64,000 nucleotides of DNA, taken from Dehalobacter restrictus DSM 9455 (GTDB lineage: Bacteria; Bacillota; Desulfitobacteriia; Desulfitobacteriales; Syntrophobotulaceae). Under the pieces are notes generated by a model, which was given only the letters and a program-made list of their open reading frames with translations, did not search any database and was not told the origin of the DNA. Within the stretch, counting starts at the first letter, position 1, and every line of letters begins with the position of its first letter. Location: the NCBI RefSeq assembly GCF_000512895.1, contig NZ_CP007033.1:2281001-2345000 (forward strand). Direction: 5' to 3'. Both the position numbers and the translations under genes were made by a program. Shown one piece after another: positions 15,502 to 44,422 of the stretch.

Positions 15502-16959
15502 TCAACCCAAGAGTTTCAGAACAGCCTGCGGTACCTGGTTAGCCTGGGCCAGCATCGCAACACCGGCCTGACTCAGGATCTGGCTCTTGGTGAAGCTGGA
15601 CATTTCCTGAGCCATATCGACGTCTTTAATAGTCGATCTGGAAGCAGTCAGGTTCTCAGAAGCAGCCTGCAGGTTGTTGATGGTGTGTTCCAGACGGTTC
15701 TGCATAGCACCAAGGGTGGAACGCTGTGCTGAAACACTTTCCAGAGCGTTGTTGATGGTTGTAATCGCCGTGTTGGCAGCTGCTTGGGTGGAGATATCCG
15801 CACCTGCTACAGTTACGGCCTGCGCCAGTATCGTTTTGTCAGTATTAAATGTAGCAGCGGAAGATGACAGCATCGTTACGACCTGCGTAGCAGTTCCATC
15901 AGTTAAACTACCTAAGCTTGCAGAATTAATTTTCATTGTTCTGCTGGATGCAGCATCCCCAACGGTAACAGAGCTCATATCGTTGTAGACGGTAACAGCA
16001 GCTCCAATATTAGTTCCAGCGGCATCTTGCAACTGGATTGAATCGTTGGCTGCGGTTAGGGTATATTGGGCGGTCTGACCTACAGCATTACCGGCATTGT
16101 TTCCAAATGTGAAAGTTGCACCTTTATAAGCAAATGCATTGGCAGCAACCGTTGCGCCCGTCCAAGTAGTCCCACCGTCGAGTGAATAACTTGCTGCTGT
16201 AACATCACCAGCTGCGACAGCGTCAACTTTGATCATCAAATTTTCATTTCTGTCTCCATTATATGTGCCAGCTGTAATACTCACGCCTCCTGTAATACCG
16301 TCGGCTATTTCAGCAGTTGAAGCAGCAGTATTGTTTACTACAATTTTATATGTCTGGGCACTTAGTCCTCTGCCTAAAGAGCTAGCTTCAATACTCCCAG
16401 CTGCTAATGTTGTTGCACCGGCACCATACAAGCCCAGTTGTGCTCTTGAGGTCGATACCCCTAATGAAAATGCATCCATCGCACCAATTGAGAGGCTTAC
16501 ACTCTGTCCGGCGTTAGCACCGACATGGAAGGTGTCACTCAGTCCACCGGCCAACAGGTTCTGGGTGTTGAATTCAGTAGTATTGGTAATACGGGTGAGT
16601 TCCCCGGCAAGCTGGTCAACTTCAGCCTGAAGTTTGACACGGTCACTTGCTGTGTTGGTATCAGACGCGGACTGAACAGCCAGTTCTCTCATTCTTTGCA
16701 GAATGCTGTGGGATTCGCTCAAGGCACCTTCAGCAGTCTGCACTAAGGAAATTGCACTGGAAGCGTTGCTGATGGCTTTGTTCAAACCGTTGATCTGTCC
16801 GGTCATTTTCTCAGTAATGGCCAGACCTGCTGCATCATCGGCAGCCTTGTTGATTCTGTAACCTGAGGAGAGTTTCTCCAGAGATTTCTGCATAGTATTC
16901 TGGGTACTATACAGACTGCGCTGAGCATTTAAGCTCAAAATGTTGGTATTAACGATCAT
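15502..16959 (-). CDS. fliC: Flagellin
   Basis: 485 aa, longer than the about 300 aa of Bacillus Hag. N-terminal D0/D1 (IVNTNILSLNAQRSLYSTQ; LSSGYRINKAADDAAGLAI) and C-terminal D1/D0 (QNRLEHTINNLQAASENLTA; ending QAVLKLLG) are conserved. The surface-exposed middle, about residues 170-390, is rich in Ala, Gly, Ser and Thr and poor in lysine, giving many hydroxyl side chains that could accept O-glycans. The gene has its own sigma-28 promoter and a structured leader with probable CsrA sites. Nearby fliB and the sugar locus suggest the protein is modified. Confidence 0.97.
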   Translation of the reverse strand: MIVNTNILSLNAQRSLYSTQNTMQKSLEKLSSGYRINKAADDAAGLAITEKMTGQINGLNKAISNASSAISLVQTAEGALSESHSILQRMRELAVQSASDTNTASDRVKLQAEVDQLAGELTRITNTTEFNTQNLLAGGLSDTFHVGANAGQSVSLSIGAMDAFSLGVSTSRAQLGLYGAGATTLAAGSIEASSLGRGLSAQTYKIVVNNTAASTAEIADGITGGVSITAGTYNGDRNENLMIKVDAVAAGDVTAASYSLDGGTTWTGATVAANAFAYKGATFTFGNNAGNAVGQTAQYTLTAANDSIQLQDAAGTNIGAAVTVYNDMSSVTVGDAASSRTMKINSASLGSLTDGTATQVVTMLSSSAATFNTDKTILAQAVTVAGADISTQAAANTAITTINNALESVSAQRSTLGAMQNRLEHTINNLQAASENLTASRSTIKDVDMAQEMSSFTKSQILSQAGVAMLAQANQVPQAVLKLLG

Positions 16960-17079: not shown

Positions 17080-17324
17080 CAAGCATATTCGATCAAAATA
17101 TAGGACTTATTCACAATTATCTCTTGATTTCGCTTTATTGCTTTGTTTTTTAGCAAATTATCTTAGGTATGCATTTTGTTTAAGAATGCTCAAAAATTGA
17201 TTTATATATTAAGAAAAGCCCAAATTCCTAGACTATAAATGATTTTACAATCCTAAATTATATAATTAATGACTCAACTTTCCCACCATTAAATAATGGT
17301 TAAAGCCATGATTTTTCTGACACA

Positions 17325-17579
17325 TCAGGTTGCAAACAACAATCGTTCTTTGAAAGACCGTGGAATAGTGCTAAGAAAAGTATCCATAATCATATTGGCT
17401 AATTCCTGGCTTATGACAGGAAAATTGCTTAGAACACGCCTGAGAGTGTCGATTAACAATACTAATGCTTGAGAAAGTTTGAGATCTTCCATTTCATCAC
17501 TGTAATAGTAAAATAGTTCTCCAATTGTCCTATCATCCTGAGTATTTCTGCTTTCAACTGCTAACATAATGTATCTTAG
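17325..17579 (-). pseudogene. IS4-type transposase, C-terminal fragment (copy A)
   Basis: Encodes the last ~84 residues of the transposase (MLAVESRNTQDDRTIGELF onward, ending KERLLFAT), identical in register with the intact C-terminus of copy B. It is cut off from the rest of its gene by the IS5-type insertion at the duplicated TTAG (17576-17579). Confidence 0.9.
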
Positions 17580-18777
17580 GGAACCACTGATTAATAACGT
17601 TTTTTATCATCCCAATAAATAATAAAGTGGGATAATCCCAAGTTAGCGGCCCTATCGCCGCCGATTTCAGCTGCCTTTTCCGAGTAATTCTCGAAAAAAG
17701 GCGTACTTATCCCCGGATTACGCGCATTGGCTTCGCCAGCCGCCGCTTCGGGCGCACATCAGCAGGTTTGCGCTGGCGGCCAGCATATACAGTCTATTCA
17801 GATTCTTGGCAATTCCTCTATAACAAACCTTTTTGAAGCCAAATATGTTCTTAATGATATGAAAGGCGTGCTCCACTTTGGCTCGGACAGACGCTTCCCG
17901 AAACTCTATATGGCAATAAAAATCCCGTGCAGGGCCATTGTCCATGCTGCGTTTCTTTCCGGGACGCTCAGCGATACGGTAATCAATTTGTGATTTGTGA
18001 GGGTCCTCTGTGATTTCCGGTCGTTTATTTAGTCCCAAATATCCGGCGTCACCGTAGAAAACCTCGTCTTCCGGCCTCATTAGCTTTGACGCTTCGGCTA
18101 TGTCATGCACATTTGCGCCTGTTGCCGCTATACCATGAATATAACCGGTCCCTGCGTCCACACCGATATGGCATTTCATGCCGAAATACCACTGATTACC
18201 CTTCTTTGTTTGGTGCATCTCCGGATCGCGGCTACCGCTTGCGTTCTTCGTTGAGGATGGCGCGCTGATCAGTGTGGCGTCAACAATGGTTCCACCTTTC
18301 ATGATATGTCCGCACTGTTCCAAACAACGGTTGATCGCCTCAAGAATGCCTTCCCTAAGCCGCTTTCCTCAATCAAATGACGGAATTTGAGCAGGGTGGT
18401 CGCATCCGGCGCCTGCTCATGTATGAAGTCTATTCCCATAAATTTTCGCATGGCGTAACTGTCGTAAATGGCATCCTCTACACCTTCGTCAGAAAGGCTA
18501 AACCATATCTGCAGCAGATACATTCTCAGCATTTTTCCAATCCCGAGCGGTGGACGACCGCGCTTACCGTCAAAATAGTGCGGCTGTATAAGCGCCACCC
18601 ATTCGTCCCAGGGGATGATCTCGTTCATTATTTCAAGAAATTCTTCTCGTTTCGTTTTCTTCCGTCGGTTTGAGTATTCTATATCCGAAAAGGTTTGTTG
18701 CCCCATTTTTACCACCTGTTACTGTTTTCTTTAATTTTACCATTTTTTGTCCGGGGGGCGATTTAATCAGTGTTTCC
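17580..18777 (-). mobile_element. IS5-type insertion sequence nested in copy A
   Basis: 1198 bases. Terminal inverted repeats GGAACCACTGATTAA and TTAATCAGTGTTTCC (one mismatch over 15). Flanked by a 4-base duplication TTAG (17576-17579 and 18778-18781), which fits the YTAR target rule of IS5-group elements. Removing the element and one TTAG restores the sequence seen without interruption in copy B (GTATCTTAGAAATACG). Confidence 0.93.
17718..18706 (-). pseudogene. IS5-type DDE transposase, frameshifted
   Basis: Two overlapping reading frames make one transposase. The first (18706 down to 18299) has the N-terminal domain DUF772-like (RRKKTKREEFLEIM, YFDGKRGRPPLGIGKMLRMY); the second (to 17718) has the DDE core (GTIVDATLISAPSSTKN, GMKCHIGVDAGTGYIHG, VFYGDAGYLGL). 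The join falls near 18330, where restoring one base (GCATTC to GCAATTC) gives a continuous LGKAILEAINRC. No slippery heptamer is visible, so a one-base loss is more likely than programmed frameshifting. The ATG at 18706 has AGGTGG upstream. Confidence 0.85.
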
Positions 18778-19903
18778 TTAGAAATACGATGGATGTTGCG
18801 GCTACCTGAGCATCATAGTTTCGTCCTTGGTATTCTTTAGCCAGAGCCAAATACGACTTGCATACTTTGAAGAAAACTTCTATGTCCCAGCGTTTGCCGT
18901 AAATACGGACAATTTCTTCTTCAGATAGCTCCAAGTCCGTACTCAGGAGGGCCAGCCAGTTTTTCGATCGCCTGTCCTGAACAAAAACAATTTTCACATC
19001 GGTTAAGTCTTGAATATTTTTGGTCTCACGTATTTGAACTGTTATTGAACCGATGATCCCTGTTTTAGCATCAGCAATATCACCTGCCAATTTACGAAGT
19101 TCCTGAAGGGGCTGCCATTTTCCGTTATAGTGGTAATGAATTTTCTCTGTAATCTTCAACATGCAAATAACATCGCGCTTTTCTTGTTTGACCCTTAAGA
19201 TCGTCTTAGGATGGGCAAACCAGCTGTCAAAAAGAACGTACTTAGCTGGAATATGAGCAGCACAGTGGAGAAGATTAATCAAAGCATCGGTTGTACTCCC
19301 CATCGCCTCGGTTCTTCTTTTGTAAGCAATCGTTCGCTTATCCAAAGGCTTGGCCGGATTCAAGATCTTCTCCGGTTTCTGGGAACTTAAGAGTGAAAAA
19401 CCAATAGGCAGAAATGTGTTTCCATCGGACCAGCCCAAAGTCAGCATTCGAAAGCCTTTCACAAATTTATGGGTTGTGTGGTCAAAGACCCGAGTCATCA
19501 GTTCAACTTTCTTACTTCGACTTCTGCTGTAAAGAGAATCATCAACAATGAGTACCGATTTCCGATCATCACTGGTCAAACCATTAACAAAATCAATGAC
19601 CTTAGATGCTAGTAACAACAGGAGTTTTGACCAATTATAATGACCGGAGTTTAAGAAGCGATAGGCTGTATTTTTACGGAAAGATAATTCTTCGGGTTTC
19701 ATTTCAAGTGTTCTAAAGAGATTCTTTCCGGTAAAAACAAGGGTGAAAAGTTCTTTTAAAATAGTCACACACGGAATTCCTGATTCTTTATAAAAATTGC
19801 AACGTTTAAGGAGCTTGGAAAATGAATTCTGGATAAAATATTGATCGATTCGTGAGGAAACAGCATTTTCGTTACTCGTCAAATCTGGTATAATACTGGT
19901 CAT
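18778..19903 (-). pseudogene. IS4-type transposase, N-terminal fragment (copy A)
   Basis: Starts at the ATG at 19903 behind GGAGGTTTCCT; runs in frame through both catalytic aspartate regions and the YREK signature and is then cut by the IS5-type element after IVFLR. It is in frame where copy B carries two single-base insertions, so this copy preserves the ancestral reading frame up to the break. Confidence 0.9.
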
Positions 19904-20138
19904 AGGAAACCTCCAAAGTACTGGTATTATTGGGTTTGTGGTTATTCTCATTATACCAGATTTGGTGGTTTCCTTGTTGTATTTAACCATACTTTCAAAG
20001 ACTTTCAAGGTTTCAACCTACCCGACAGGGTGGGAAAGTTGAGTTAATGAAAAATAATTATAAGACTTATAATGTAGGTATTATTTATGTTATATTTTGT
20101 ATAAATAAACAATTATTTAAAGAGGAGGAAATAAAAGT

Positions 20139-21275
20139 ATGATATCAGAAAAAAGTAAAAATGTTATCAATTCTGTTAATGGCGATCATGTTGCTGGTTA
20201 CAGTTGTCCCTGCTGTTTTGCCACAACTGAAGTAACACTTAATCCTTCAGATAAAGGTGGTGGGGTAGCTTTAAGTAACGGTAATCTAACTGTTTATGAA
20301 GGGGATACTAATTACAATCAAGGCGTCAGAGCTACAAAAAGTGTTACTAATGGAAAATGGTATTGGGAAGTTACATCAGTTTCAGGTCCAACGAATACAG
20401 GGATTGGAATAGCTAATAGTTCAGCAAGTGTTTCTAGTTGGTCTTGGCAAGAACAAAATAGCCGAGTTTATTATGGAGATGATTCGGGATATCCAAGCAT
20501 TAAAACAGAAGATTTAGGAGGTGGATATTTAGCTGTCGGCAATACAATTGGATTAGCTTTGGATATGGACGAAGGAACTTTAGAAATATATAAAAATGGA
20601 AACTTGCTTGGTACATTGTGTAGTGATATATCTTCACTCGGGGCTGTTTATCCGTTTTTTGTTTCAGCAACAAATGCTACCTCTGTAACATTTAATTTTG
20701 GAGCAACTCCATTTACGTTTACTCCCCCTAGTGGCTATCTAGCGTATAACCTATCTGTTTTGCCTAATGCACCAAGTAATTTAACAGCTACTTCTGGTAA
20801 TTCCCAAATCTCTTTAAGTTGGACCGCTGATTCTGGTGCTACTAGTTACAATGTTAAAAGGGCAACTGTAATCGGAGGTCCATATACAACAGTAGGAACT
20901 TCGACAACAAACTCGTATATTGACACGTCAGTAATAAACGGAACAACCTACTATTATGTCGTCACAGCTGTAAATAGTGCCGAGGAAAGTTCAAATTCGG
21001 ATGAAGCATCAGCAACGCCGTTAGAAGTTGTTACTGGAAGAGCTTTACTCGTAGTTACCATGATAAACGGAACAGAAAAGGAATATGACTTAACCATGAC
21101 CCAGGTAAATGATTTCATTAACTGGTATGATGGACGAACTGAAGGGACCGGAAGAAATTATTATATCATGAATAAAAACTTTAACCTTGGTCCCTTCCAA
21201 AGCCGGAAAGACTACCTAGTATTTGACAAGATCATGAATTTTGAGGTCATGGAATATCAGGAGCAAGAACAATAA
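20139..21275 (+). CDS. Secreted SPRY/B30.2 + fibronectin type III protein (signal peptide out of frame)
   Basis: 378 aa as read. Residues ~45-205 are a SPRY/B30.2 domain (GKWYWEVTSVSGPTNTGIG, LGLALDM-like, LEIYKNGNLLGTL); ~208-296 a fibronectin type III domain (PSNLTATSGNSQISLSWTA); the last ~75 residues form a domain around FINWYDGRTEGTG and LGPFQSRKDYLVFDKI. The annotated N-terminus is implausible, but the next frame over 20157-20225 encodes a textbook signal peptide (MLSILLMAIMLLVTVVPAV). One A fewer near 20158 and one T more near 20218 would give a secreted protein cut after AVFA. Strong site GAGGAGG precedes 20139. No partner is known; surface binding is a guess. Confidence 0.7.
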   Translation: MISEKSKNVINSVNGDHVAGYSCPCCFATTEVTLNPSDKGGGVALSNGNLTVYEGDTNYNQGVRATKSVTNGKWYWEVTSVSGPTNTGIGIANSSASVSSWSWQEQNSRVYYGDDSGYPSIKTEDLGGGYLAVGNTIGLALDMDEGTLEIYKNGNLLGTLCSDISSLGAVYPFFVSATNATSVTFNFGATPFTFTPPSGYLAYNLSVLPNAPSNLTATSGNSQISLSWTADSGATSYNVKRATVIGGPYTTVGTSTTNSYIDTSVINGTTYYYVVTAVNSAEESSNSDEASATPLEVVTGRALLVVTMINGTEKEYDLTMTQVNDFINWYDGRTEGTGRNYYIMNKNFNLGPFQSRKDYLVFDKIMNFEVMEYQEQEQ

Positions 21276-21284
21276 AATCAGCAA

Positions 21285-21320
21285 AGCCCGGGGAGATTGA
21301 TCCTCGGGCTTAGTTATTTA
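21285..21320 (+). terminator. Terminator of the SPRY/FN3 gene
   Basis: AGCCCGGGGA and TCCTCGGGCT pair over ten bases (one G-T) around GATTGA, followed by a T-rich tail. A near copy is at 22282-22318. Confidence 0.8.
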
Positions 21321-21522: not shown

Positions 21523-21661
21523 AAACAGGCGGTTCAAGAGTCGCTTTCTCCAACGGAGAAAATGATTACATCCGACTGCACAAGCCGCATCCGCGAAACA
21601 TCCTCAAGCCGTATCAAGTAGAGGATATTATTACAGCCTTACAAGAAAGGGGATTGTTATG
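21523..21661 (+). pseudogene. hicA toxin, N-terminally truncated
   Basis: In-frame codons from about 21525 to the TGA at 21659-21661 read TGGSRVAFSNGENDYIRLHK and then PHPRNILKPYQVEDIITALQERGLL. This is the C-terminal half of a HicA mRNA interferase including its conserved Gly-Gly-Ser and His positions. A stop codon directly precedes it and no start is available, so the first ~30-40 residues have been lost. The stop overlaps the hicB start (TTATGAG), the usual hicA-hicB coupling. Confidence 0.7.
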
Positions 21662-21997
21662 AGCAACTACATTCATTATCGAGACTACACCGGGAGCATT
21701 GAGTTTTCCGAGGAAGATGCAGTATTTCATGGAAAGGTCATTGGCATAAAAAACATGATTTCTTTTGAAGGTGACAGCGCAAAAGCCCTCACCGAAGATT
21801 TTCATAATGCGGTTGATGAGTATTTGGAATTATGCGAGAAAAGCGGCAAACAGCCCGAGAAGCCGTTCAAAGGTTCTTTCAATGTCCGCATTCAGCCCGA
21901 ATTGCACCGCCAAGCCGCCCTTGCTGCGTCCGCTCGCGGTCTGTCCCTCAATGCCTTTGTGGAGTATGCCATAAGACACAATGTGAATCAACCTTAA
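21659..21997 (+). CDS. hicB: HicB family antitoxin
   Basis: 112 aa. N-terminal RNase-H-like HicB fold (YTGSIEFSEEDAVFHGKVIG, SFEGDSAKALTEDFHNAVDE) and a C-terminal ribbon-helix-helix (SFNVRIQPELHRQAALAASA, LSLNAFVEYAI) for DNA binding. HicB neutralises HicA and represses its own operon. Here the toxin gene is truncated, leaving an orphan antitoxin. AGAAAGGGG precedes the ATG. Region 21331-21522 before it shows no gene, only a loose AACACCCC/GGGGTGTGTT inverted repeat. Confidence 0.88.
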   Translation: MSNYIHYRDYTGSIEFSEEDAVFHGKVIGIKNMISFEGDSAKALTEDFHNAVDEYLELCEKSGKQPEKPFKGSFNVRIQPELHRQAALAASARGLSLNAFVEYAIRHNVNQP

Positions 21998-22070: not shown

Positions 22071-22114
22071 TTCCTATGATTAAACTTTACGGTGCCTGAC
22101 ACCAACTTATTCTT

Positions 22115-22270
22115 AACTGGTATGATGGACGAGCTGAAGGAACCGGAAGTAATTATTATATTGTGAACAAAAACTATAACCTCGGCCCCTTCCAAAGTAG
22201 AAAAGACTACCTTGTATTTGACAAGATCATGAATTTTGAGGTTATGGAATATCAGGAGCAAGAACAATAA
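22115..22270 (+). pseudogene. Duplicated 3' end of the SPRY/FN3 gene
   Basis: In-frame codons read NWYDGRAEGTGSNYY ... NLGPFQSRKDYLVFDKIMNF and end EYQEQEQ, nearly the same as the last ~51 residues of the protein ending at 21275. The similarity starts abruptly at TTAACTGGTATGATGG and continues through the terminator. No start codon or upstream domain is present. A GGTGCCTGACACC palindrome lies just before the junction (about 22090-22103). Confidence 0.85.
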
Positions 22271-22281
22271 AAAATAATCAA

Positions 22282-22318
22282 AGCCCGGGGAGATTAATCC
22301 TCGGGCTTAGTTATTATT
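22282..22318 (+). terminator. Duplicate terminator
   Basis: Same stem as 21285-21310 (AGCCCGGGGA/TCCTCGGGCT), loop GATTAA, T-rich tail; part of the duplicated 3' segment. Confidence 0.75.
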
Positions 22319-22431
22319 CAATCGATAAAATCCGATTTCTCAGAATAAAGGAAAGGTGATGGCGTAAGAAGCAAAGCTCCGGGTCATATTTGTGAAAACA
22401 TGTTCTGCGTATAGTCCTTAATATTTACGGG

Positions 22432-25023: not shown

Positions 25024-25068
25024 ATTTACCCCCCATATCAACGTATTGCAAGTATGTATTTGTTATTG

Positions 25069-26640
25069 ACTCAACTTTCCCACCATTAAATAATGGTTAA
25101 AGCCATGATTTTTCTGACACATCAGGTTGCAAACAACAATCGTTCTTTGAAAGACCGTGGAATAGTGCTAAGAAAAGTATCCATAATCATATTGGCTAAT
25201 TCCTGGCTTATGACAGGAAAATTGCTTAGAACACGCCTGAGAGTGTCGATTAACAATACTAATGCTTGAGAAAGTTTGAGATCTTCCATTTCATCACTGT
25301 AATAGTAAAATAGTTCTCCAATTGTCCTATCATCCTGAGTATTTCTGCTTTCAACTGCTAACATAATGTATCTTAGAAATACGATGGATGTTGCGGCTAC
25401 CTGAGCATCATAGTTTCGTCCTTGGTATTCTTTAGCCAGAGCCAAATACGACTTGCATACTTTGAAGAAAACTTCTATGTCCCAGCGTTTGCCGTAAATA
25501 CGGACAATTTCTTCTTCAGATAGCTCCAAGTCCGTACTCAGGAGGGCCAGCCAGTTTTTCGATCGTCTGTCCTGAACAAAAACAATTTTCACATCGGTTA
25601 AGTCTTGAATATTTTTGGTCTCACGTATTTGAACTGTTATTGAACCGATGATCCCTGTTTTTAGCATCAGCAATATCACCTGCCAATTTACGAAGTTCCT
25701 GAAGGGGCTGCCATTTTCCGTTATAGTGGTAATGAATTTTCTCTGTAATCTTCAACATGCAAATAACATCGCGCTTTTCTTGTTTGACCCTTAAGATCGT
25801 CTTAGGATGGGCAAACCAGCTGTCAAAAAGAACGTACTTAGCTGGAATATGAGCAGCACAGTGGAGAAGATTAATCAAAGCATCGGTTGTACTCCCCATC
25901 GCCTCGGTTCTTCTTTTGTAAGCAATCGTTCGCTTATCCAAAGGCTTGGCCGGATTCAAGATCTTCTCCGGTTTCTGGGAACTTAAGAGTGAAAAACCAA
26001 TAGGCAGAAATGTGTTTCCATCGGACCAGCCCAAAGTCAGCATTCGAAAGCCTTTTCACAAATTTATGGGTTGTGTGGTCAAAGACCCGAGTCATCAGTT
26101 CAACTTTCTTACTTCGACTTCTGCTGTAAAGAGAATCATCAACAATGAGTACCGATTTCCGATCATCACTGGTCAAACCATTAACAAAATCAATGACCTT
26201 AGATGCTAGTAACAACAGGAGTTTTGACCAATTATAATGACCGGAGTTTAAGAAGCGATAGGCTGTATTTTTACGGAAAGATAATTCTTCGGGTTTCATT
26301 TCAAGTGTTCTAAAGAGATTCTTTCCGGTAAAAACAAGGGTGAAAAGTTCTTTTAAAATAGTCACACACGGAATTCCTGATTCTTTATAAAAATTGCAAC
26401 GTTTAAGGAGCTTGGAAAATGAATTCTGGATAAAATATTGATCGATTCGTGAGGAAACAGCATTTTCGTTACTCGTCAAATCTGGTATAATACTGGTCAT
26501 AGGAAACCTCCAAAGTACTGGATTATTGGGTTTGTGGTTATTCTCATTATACCAGATTTGGTGGTTTCCTTGTTGTATTTAACCATACTTTCAAAGACTT
26601 TCAAGGTTTCAACCTACCCGACAGGGTGGGAAAGTTGAGT
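25069..26640 (-). mobile_element. IS4-type insertion sequence, copy B
   Basis: 1572 bases with the same 16-base terminal repeats as copy A and its own 5-base duplication TATTG (25064-25068 and 26641-26645). Nearly identical to copy A apart from single-base indels and one substitution. It is in the same orientation as copy A and landed two bases after the csrA stop codon. Confidence 0.95.
25122..26500 (-). pseudogene. IS4-type transposase, twice frameshifted (copy B)
   Basis: Starts at the ATG at 26500. Compared with copy A there is an extra T near 26055 (CCTTTTCAC versus CCTTTCAC) and an extra T near 25660 (CTGTTTTTAGC versus CTGTTTTAGC), each breaking the frame. Three fragments together cover the full transposase, including the C-terminus lost in copy A. 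All differences are in short homopolymers, so assembly error is possible. Confidence 0.9.
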
Positions 26641-26647
26641 TATTGAA

Positions 26648-26911
26648 TTATTTCTTTTCTTTCCCTATTCTCCTAGTTTGAAGCATTTCTTCTAAGACCG
26701 CTTTTGTATTTTGTTCATCTCCGGCAGTGGCAAGAGAAGCTTCCTGATTCTGTTTCTCGATTTCTTCCAGCACTTCACTGCGCAGAATCTTGACATCCTT
26801 CGGTGCGTTGATACCAATGCGTACCTGATCACCGGAGACAGACACAATCGTGATTTCAATGTTATCGTTAATGATGATCTTTTCATCGATTTTCCTGGAC
26901 AATACGAGCAT
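26648..26911 (-). CDS. csrA: CsrA carbon storage/translation regulator
   Basis: 87 aa. Core MLVLSRKIDEKIIINDNIEI, VRIGINAPKDVKILRSEV is canonical CsrA; the C-terminal tail (~25 residues, EQNTKAVLEEMLQTRRIGKE) is longer than in most 60-75 aa homologs. CsrA binds GGA in mRNA hairpins and blocks translation. The ATG directly follows the fliW stop, as in Bacillus fliW-csrA. Its expected target is the flagellin leader at 16964-17005. IS copy B begins immediately downstream. Confidence 0.97.
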   Translation of the reverse strand: MLVLSRKIDEKIIINDNIEITIVSVSGDQVRIGINAPKDVKILRSEVLEEIEKQNQEASLATAGDEQNTKAVLEEMLQTRRIGKEKK

Positions 26912-27390: not shown

Positions 27391-27954
27391 TTATTTTTTC
27401 ACATCAAACATTTGACCAACGGCCTTAATCTTCAAGTAAGGCTCTTGTTCCCAATAGACTTTCATCAGCGGCAGGGAAAAATCCTCTATCCTGACGCCGC
27501 CCCAATCCTCGAGCTGTGTATCCGTTCCTCCGAGCTGCGCCCGAAGTTCTAAAGTCCCAGGCTGGCCGATCATTTGGATGGAGGGAAGCGGAACCACAGC
27601 GAGTTGTTTCTCCGGCGGTTCCATGGAGCGGATGACAATCTCGGGGATGGTCGCTTGATTGGAGGTATCGGCGAAAGCATAGCCTGTCTGAACCGTTCTC
27701 TCAAGATTCGCCAGATAGCTGCTTTCTGCTTCATCGGCAAACGCAAAGGCCCGGAATTCCGGACCGCCATAACCCAAAGACTGCCGTACGGCAGAAGTAT
27801 CCACCTGCACATCCGGATAGGTGCGCTGCAGATCGATTTCCGCTTCTTTTTGCTGAACGGAGACTTCTGCTTTTCTGATATTCAAGTCGTAACTCGCTTT
27901 TTTCAGATCCAGCCCGAGCTGGGCAGGCTGCCGGTGAATCTGCAAATCAATCAT
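27391..27954 (-). CDS. DUF6470 (YviE-like) protein
   Basis: 187 aa, starting MIDLQIHRQPAQLGLDLKKA, with IRKAEVSVQQKEAEIDLQRT and a C-terminal WEQEPYLKIKAVGQMFDVK. This matches YviE/DUF6470, a protein of unknown role found between flgL and fliW in Firmicutes, exactly as here. Confidence 0.85.
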   Translation of the reverse strand: MIDLQIHRQPAQLGLDLKKASYDLNIRKAEVSVQQKEAEIDLQRTYPDVQVDTSAVRQSLGYGGPEFRAFAFADEAESSYLANLERTVQTGYAFADTSNQATIPEIVIRSMEPPEKQLAVVPLPSIQMIGQPGTLELRAQLGGTDTQLEDWGGVRIEDFSLPLMKVYWEQEPYLKIKAVGQMFDVKK

Positions 27955-27975
27955 TTCGGCACATCCTTACGTCAC

Positions 27976-28896
27976 TTACCGCATGAAATCAACCAGGGAA
28001 GGCTGAATGATCTGAGCGCCGACCGACAAAGCCGCCTTGTAGGTATTATTAACCGAGTTGAATTCCATGATCGTTTCAGCCATATCGGCATCTTGAAGGT
28101 CGGAAAGGTTCTGCTTCAGGTTAATCGTATTATTGACAAGCTGATCGCTGATCGTGCTCATACGGTTGGTTCTGGCCCCTAATTCGGACCGCAGAGCCAG
28201 GAAGTTATCCAAATGGCCGTCGATCTCATCCAAAGCTTCATTGATCTGGGTCTCATTGCCGCTGCTAAGCGAGGTACTTAATTTGTTCAAGGTATTGAAA
28301 AAGGAAGAATTTTCTGTATTGTCGGCATTGTAGGTAATCCCAAAAAGTTTCGTTCCTTCAATAGCGACCCCAATATTTACATTGGGTCCAACCTCAAATT
28401 CAATCACTTTATCGTTTCCGTCCCATTGCGTCAAAGTAAAAGGTACGGTTGCACTGCCGGGAATCGGCGGCGTATCAATCTTGCTGCCGGAAAAAATATA
28501 TTTCGAGTTCACCTGGCTGTTCGCCATGACCTGGAACTGCATATTAAGCTGATCGACTTCTTTGGCAATCTGGGAGCGGTCCGTATTGGAAAGGGAACCA
28601 TTGGCACCCTGTACCGTCAGCTCCCTGATCCGCTGTAGCATGGCCGTCATACCGCTCAGTACACTTTCACTGGATTCCAGGTAGGAAGTCGCTTCACTGG
28701 CGTTATTCTTCCATTGTTCCATCGAGGATATCGTGCTGTTGATGCGAATGACAGTTTCTGTCCCTACAGGATCATCCGATGGTTTCGTAATTGTATTACC
28801 GCTAGAAAGCTGATTCTGCAGCAATACCATTTTCTTATTCGATTGCTCCAAATTTCTTAATAGATTATGCGATAGAATATTATTGCTCACCCGCAT
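27976..28896 (-). CDS. flgL: FlgL hook-filament junction protein
   Basis: 306 aa, flagellin-like N-terminus (RVSNNILSHNLLRNLEQSNK; LSSGNTITKPSDDPVG) and C-terminus (ADMAETIMEFNSVNNTYKA). FlgL (HAP3) joins FlgK to the filament. It lies after flgK in the standard order. Confidence 0.95.
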   Translation of the reverse strand: MRVSNNILSHNLLRNLEQSNKKMVLLQNQLSSGNTITKPSDDPVGTETVIRINSTISSMEQWKNNASEATSYLESSESVLSGMTAMLQRIRELTVQGANGSLSNTDRSQIAKEVDQLNMQFQVMANSQVNSKYIFSGSKIDTPPIPGSATVPFTLTQWDGNDKVIEFEVGPNVNIGVAIEGTKLFGITYNADNTENSSFFNTLNKLSTSLSSGNETQINEALDEIDGHLDNFLALRSELGARTNRMSTISDQLVNNTINLKQNLSDLQDADMAETIMEFNSVNNTYKAALSVGAQIIQPSLVDFMR

Positions 28897-43147: not shown

Positions 43148-44422
43148 ATGACCTTGATTCTGACCCTTGTTATTTTTGTAGCTACGTATGCACTAATCGT
43201 AACGGAGAAAATCCCGCGGGCTGTCGCCGCGGCCCTCGGTGCCTGTCTCCTGATTCTTTTGGGTGTATTCCCGCAGGAAACTGCTGTGGAACACATCGAC
43301 TGGAATACGCTGGGCTTACTTATCGGCATGATGATCATTGTCGATCTGACCAGACGTTCCGGTGTCTTCGGCTTTCTGGCTATTTGGGTCGCCAAGAAAG
43401 TCAAAGGCAATCCAATCAGACTGCTGATCTCTTTGGCTATACTGACTGCCGTTTTATCGGCTTTTCTGGATAACGTGACGACTGTTTTGCTGGTCGTTCC
43501 GGTTTCCATTGTGATTGCTGAAACCTTGAAATTAAACCCAATACCTTTTTTGATTACCCAGATTCTAGCCAGCAACATCGGGGGAACCGCGACCCTGATC
43601 GGTGATCCGCCGAATATCATGATTGCCGGACCGGCAGAGCTTACTTTTATGGATTTCATGGTGAACCTGGCACCTGTGACGATTGTGATCTTGGCTGTTA
43701 CCCTATTGGGCTTTTATTTTCTTTATCGCCAAAAGCTAAAGACCGATAAGGAATCCATCGCCCTGCTGCTGTCGCAAAATGAATACGACTATATTAAAGA
43801 CTGAGCCCAGCTCAAAAGAAGCCTGGCCGTGCTCGCTCTGACCATTGTCGGTTTTATGCTGCACGCCGTCATCCATGTTGAGACCGCTACGATTGCGCTG
43901 GCCGGAGGCATGCTGCTCATGGTGCTGAGCCATGAGGAACCGGAAGAGGTATTTCTGGCGATTGAATGGCCGACGATCTTCTTCTTTACCGGATTATTCG
44001 TTTTAGTTGGAGGATTGGTCGAAGTCGGCGTCCTGGATAAGATTGCTGAATGGAGCCTTGGGCTTACCGGCGGTGTACCGGTCGTCATGGCGATGCTGAT
44101 TGTCTGGCTTTCCGCTATTTTTTCAGCTTTCGTCGATAATATTCCATTCGTGGCCACCATGATTCCGTTGATTCAAAAAATCAGGGTCCTCGGCGGGCTG
44201 ACCCCAGAACAGCTCCAGCCGCTCTGGTGGTCTCTGGCTCTGGGCGCCTGCCTGGGCGGAAACGGCACAATTGTCGGTGCCTCGGCCAACGTCATTGTCT
44301 CAGGGATTGCCGAAAAAAACGGCTATACGATCAGCTACAAAAAATACTTCCTGATCGGATTTCCGTTCATGATTCTATCCATTGTGATCGCCTCGGCGTA
44401 TATTTTGCTGCGGTACTATTAG
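43148..44422 (+). pseudogene. ArsB/NhaD-type ion transporter interrupted by in-frame TGA
   Basis: Two parts in the same frame, 43148-43804 and 43805-44422, together ~424 residues, read as one ArsB/NhaD-like (CitMHS/IT superfamily) permease with about 11 membrane helices. Both halves carry the repeat signature: SAFLDNVTTVLLVVPVS and GTATLIGDPPNIMIAG in the first, SAFVDNIPFVATMIPL and NGTIVGASANVIVSG in the second. The TGA at 43802-43804 lies between the halves (IKD-stop-AQLKRSLAVL). TGG to TGA is the simplest cause. GGAGGTGCACGATTC precedes the ATG. It may be inactive, split into two polypeptides, or an assembly error. Confidence 0.85.

Follow-up and report, generated by a model that had tools for sequence, protein, structure and literature searches.

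A signal peptide out of frame between two homopolymer runs in a SPRY-fn3 gene of Dehalobacter restrictus DSM 9455: probable consensus errors beside insertion elements

Homopolymer indels are the main type of error in long-read assemblies (PMC12007338), and a survey of phase-variable genes applied cut-offs of at least 11 for poly-A/T tracts and 9 for poly-G/C tracts (PMC5953494). The gene described here bears a likeness to both systems. As with the gene-fragmenting homopolymer indel errors of bacterial assemblies (PMC12007338), the frame is shifted by single-base differences in run length, and neighbouring repeats are affected too. However, in the present case two such differences compensate each other: the open reading frame (ORF) is kept, with the loss of the signal peptide alone. 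With the phase-variable simple-sequence-repeat genes of the Neisseria phasome (PMC5953494) the gene has in common that it codes for an exported protein and has homopolymer runs close to its start, but the runs are far too short and both would be needed at once. Lastly, like secreted SPRY/fibronectin type III (fn3) proteins of Firmicutes (Paenibacillus L034 and the proteins of genomes G067 and G001), its product combines a signal peptide with SPRY and/or fn3 domains, and some of these proteins also share its C-terminal domain. In those examined the signal is in frame, and it is out of frame here alone.

The window, that is the whole stretch of DNA analysed, comprises 64,000 nt of Dehalobacter restrictus DSM 9455 (NZ_CP007033.1, positions 2,281,001-2,345,000, forward strand). 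The gene is located in an island that is bounded by a fliC-type flagellin gene (15502-16959) and csrA (26648-26911). An IS4-family copy lies on either side; the two share one orientation, and the left copy is interrupted by an IS5-like element, which is presumably of the IS5 family. The relevant features are:

17261-20046, minus strand: left IS4-family element, interrupted by the IS5-like element; transposase part at 18767-20008
17600-18760, minus strand: IS5-like copy within the left IS4 copy
20123-20128, plus strand: ribosome-binding site AGGAGG, from direct reading, with ATG 20139 10 bases further on
20139-21275, plus strand: ORF of 378 aa with disrupted signal peptide region, SPRY, fn3 and conserved C-terminal domain
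20149-20154, plus strand: A6 run at which the frame departs from that of the signal peptide; A5 expected
20155-20217, plus strand: stretch coding for the predicted signal peptide, VKMLSILLMAIMLLVTVVPAV, in frame +1 relative to the ORF
20216-20219, plus strand: T4 run at which the frame comes back; T5 expected
21284-21311, plus strand: terminator-like hairpin 3' of the ORF
25063-26642, minus strand: second IS4-family copy, in which three single-base indels break the coding sequence into three ORFs

As assembled, the ORF begins with MISEKSKNVINSVNGDHVAGYSCPCCFATTEVTLNP and has a hydrophilic N-terminus of 28 residues (MISEKSKNVINSVNGDHVAGYSCPCCFA). Downstream of this N-terminus follow a full-length SPRY domain (aa 73-189; Pfam E-value 3.8e-13), an fn3 domain (aa 211-287; E-value 5.1e-5, with 23.8 bits slightly below the Pfam cut-off of 25 bits) and, at the C-terminus, a conserved region of some 75 aa. 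The reading frame of the ORF itself holds no N-terminal signal peptide, but one exists in frame +1. Shortening the A run by one base and lengthening the T run by one gives MISEKVKMLSILLMAIMLLVTVVPAVFA, followed by TTEVTLNP. The frame of the ORF is then regained right where cleavage is expected, A-V-F-A / TTEVTLNP, just after the T4 run, and the mature protein is predicted to start from 20223. The hidden signal peptide is complete and contains no stop. The first-pass annotation had described this hydrophilic start and the out-of-frame signal sequence correctly, coordinates included, and we reproduced the pair of changes from which it had derived the AVFA end.

It had also proposed comparing homologues, and signal peptides were found in frame in three of them. 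The closest homologue with all domains, from G067 (L007), reads MFKKKLICLFILIVMLLSLPTVSFA / EGNVTWNPDDKG in a single frame. Its cleavage (S-F-A / EGNVTWNP) is in register with VFA / TTEVTLNPSDKG of our ORF, and the cleavage site precedes the conserved VTxNP motif by 3 residues in both proteins. The other two are the Paenibacillus homologue L034 and the protein of the same-genus relative G001 (L005), which comprises fn3 and the C-terminal part. Among 73 genomes of the order, the SPRY region is present in one other, where the signal peptide is in frame; the two runs can therefore not be read in any close relative. The sole strong copy within the genome covers the 3' part of the gene (22110-22321) and so does not include the runs, and the DNA of the signal peptide had no match in the viral contigs scanned.

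The flanking insertion elements offered a yardstick for the local quality of the sequence. Nine other IS5-like copies in the genome are identical to one another; relative to them, two runs in the window's copy are each one base short, and T is replaced by C (plus strand) in two places at the edges of runs. Three single-base indels (T4 to T5, T3 to T4 and one T lost) are private to the right IS4 copy, which shows zero private substitutions relative to other copies, and these indels are probably sequence errors. No such differences were seen across about 1.6 kb of the left IS4 parts, the outer edge of the element excepted, and three other IS4 copies elsewhere in the genome have no indel. In total, about 4.3 kb of the three flanking IS copies contain 5 single-base indels and 2 run-edge T/C changes, with 4 of the indels located in homopolymer runs and private indels outnumbering private substitutions, while no private indel or run-edge change was found in 12 IS copies elsewhere in the same genome. 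All seven private differences thus fall within 22% of the compared IS sequence (a probability of about 3e-5, by a hand calculation that takes all copies as equally likely to differ). An excess of run-length indels relative to identical sequence elsewhere is therefore present locally, as would be the case for consensus errors. The two suspect runs lie 103-173 bases away from the IS end at 20046.

The quality of the surrounding sequence was checked by comparing genes of G003, a genome of the same genus, with 264 kb (the window and both of its sides). Only 1 frameshift was found among 113 conserved genes (111 kb aligned), and the unique genes of the island, encoding HicB, a DUF3102 protein and a homologue of the flagellin lysine-N-methylase FliB, are intact. 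To judge from these comparisons, the genome is good overall and the excess of indels is restricted to the IS copies and the signal peptide region. In the course of this check, a frame anomaly at 27574-28182 was traced to a spurious antisense ORF and dismissed. A mutator background was also considered, but MutS and MutL, both of full length, gave no sign of it, full length being no proof of function.

Could the signal-like reading be due to chance in an AT-rich frame, with the hydrophilic N-terminus being genuine? When one compensating pair of run-length changes was allowed in each of 190 ORFs (150 aa or longer) from the window and related regions, a hidden signal-like N-terminus was obtained in 7, but no other matched this ORF in strength (mean of the hydrophobic core 3.1 versus 2.7 for the next-best), and the N-termini of the second- and third-ranked ORFs are hydrophobic already as they stand. 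When the codons of the ORF start were shuffled, a core of 3.0 was reached in 35 of 3000 trials (~1%), which leaves chance some room. The alignment of homologues, with signal peptides in frame and an agreeing position of cleavage (SFA/EGN-VTWNP versus VFA/TTE-VTLNP), is the stronger evidence against chance, compared with the scan and the shuffles. We regard this homologue evidence as decisive: the out-of-frame stretch is the signal peptide of the gene itself, and a fortuitous origin is very unlikely. From the hidden signal and the in-frame signals of the homologues, it follows that the product of the gene is, or was until recently, a secreted SPRY-fn3 protein. It is equally hard to believe that the sequence is correct and that length variation or slippage at the two runs lets the cell make this protein in two forms, one cytoplasmic and one exported. 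The first-pass annotation had offered phase-variable control of secretion as one of two options, and the signal peptide is indeed bracketed exactly by two homopolymer runs. However, A6 and T4 are common lengths, of which the window counts 28 and 349, respectively, and they fall far below the cut-off of at least 11 used for tracts of this kind. No change in one tract toggles the full product: altering the A run alone gives a product of 31 residues and altering the T run alone one of 30, so the exported form requires two simultaneous changes per switch. Moreover, the one homologue of the order with the same SPRY region has no such arrangement. We therefore consider this option, which found no support, highly improbable. 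Even more doubtful is recoding, by which some exported protein would be made from the sequence as it stands, either through slippage of ribosomes or polymerase at both runs or through a start at ATG 20161 combined with one slip at the T run. ATG 20161 is in the signal frame and A6 is a possible slippage site, but a reading of the sequence shows no in-phase canonical -1 heptamer at the A or the T run, the main ATG is preceded by a good ribosome-binding site and ATG 20161 by none, and the frame would have to shift twice, in opposite directions.

The other option of the first-pass annotation, two compensating errors, fared better, with indels and run-edge changes concentrated in the neighbouring IS copies. 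We consider it probable that run-length consensus errors, in a stretch where the assembly is locally poor, displace the signal peptide of an ordinary Sec-exported SPRY-fn3 protein. Translation would start at ATG 20139 and the product would be exported via Sec, the consensus having an extra A at 20149-20154 and lacking a T at 20216-20219. The poor stretch, of about 17.5-26.6 kb around the repeated IS elements, would give rise to run-length errors, and incomplete correction at and beside repeats would yield such a pattern of indels. The hidden signal, the signals of the homologues and the indel excess in the IS copies are direct observations, from which we infer errors rather than real changes at the two runs. 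Some points weigh against errors: the rest of the sequence is good, two compensating errors within 70 bases are a coincidence even at the local rate, and the identity of the distant IS copies might be owed to the assembler. We do not rate consensus errors as more than probable because the IS copies are not under selection and their indels could be real decay. The first-pass annotation left out a less likely alternative, in which the two single-base differences are genuine mutations of recent date. The first frameshift would have removed the signal peptide and the second would have restored the downstream frame, in which case the product is no longer exported or the gene is decaying in its IS-flanked island. 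The low overall rate of frameshifts in conserved genes speaks for this alternative, and the broken IS copies, the partial duplicate of the 3' end of the gene and the apparent 3' remnant of hicA in the island, as well as a CitMHS-type transporter gene with an in-frame TGA elsewhere in the window, are compatible with relaxed selection. On the other hand, the signal is otherwise undamaged and 1.05 kb downstream are open, which means that both changes would necessarily be very recent. In addition, the frame would be restored more simply by a back-change in the same A run, and the indel-rich neighbouring IS copies resemble error more than bacterial mutation. Because the hidden signal is complete, without a stop, and ends where the homologues predict, the differences would be at most very recent in any case. 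They are thus most likely consensus errors and otherwise recent real mutations, as far as sequence comparison can tell.

The disrupted signal peptide represents no new mechanism, and neither outcome would surprise a specialist. If the differences are errors, the gene should be annotated as encoding a secreted protein and about 17.5-26.6 kb should be treated as sequence of lower quality. If the changes are real, the gene neatly illustrates how a double frameshift can take away a signal peptide and nothing else.

Several minor observations were made in the course of this work. The IS4/IS5-like composite is also present at genome position 979-982 kb. The partial second copy of the SPRY-fn3 gene at 22110-22321 (plus strand) is 90% identical to the 3' end of the gene and its terminator, and it stands behind a HicB gene, adjoining the sequence GGTGCCTGACACC. 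Directly before hicB (21659-21997), an open stretch at 21530-21660 (plus strand; ...SNGENDYIRLHKPHPRNILKPYQVEDIITALQERGLL) resembles what is left of the 3' end of hicA, so that HicB would lack its partner. The frameshifted gene near genome position 2369000 (L087), called gamma-carbonic-anhydrase-like from a reading of its sequence, differs from G003 by a single base, with GTCTGGCC where the frame suggests GTCGGCC. In the gene for the CitMHS-type transporter (43148-44422, plus strand), another indel was considered as the cause of the break and rejected in favour of one in-frame TGA near 43802 (D*AQLKRSL), and the Pfam model is matched end to end by the two halves. The C-terminal domain of about 75 residues (residues ~300-378 of the ORF, L001) has neither a Pfam nor an NCBIfam model and reads ALLVVTMxNGxxKEYDL...FxxWYDxR...GPFxxRKDYxVFDKIxxFEVxEY in L001 and its homologues. 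It occurs in secreted proteins of the order, of Paenibacillus and Tepidibacter, and of Bacillus plasmids.
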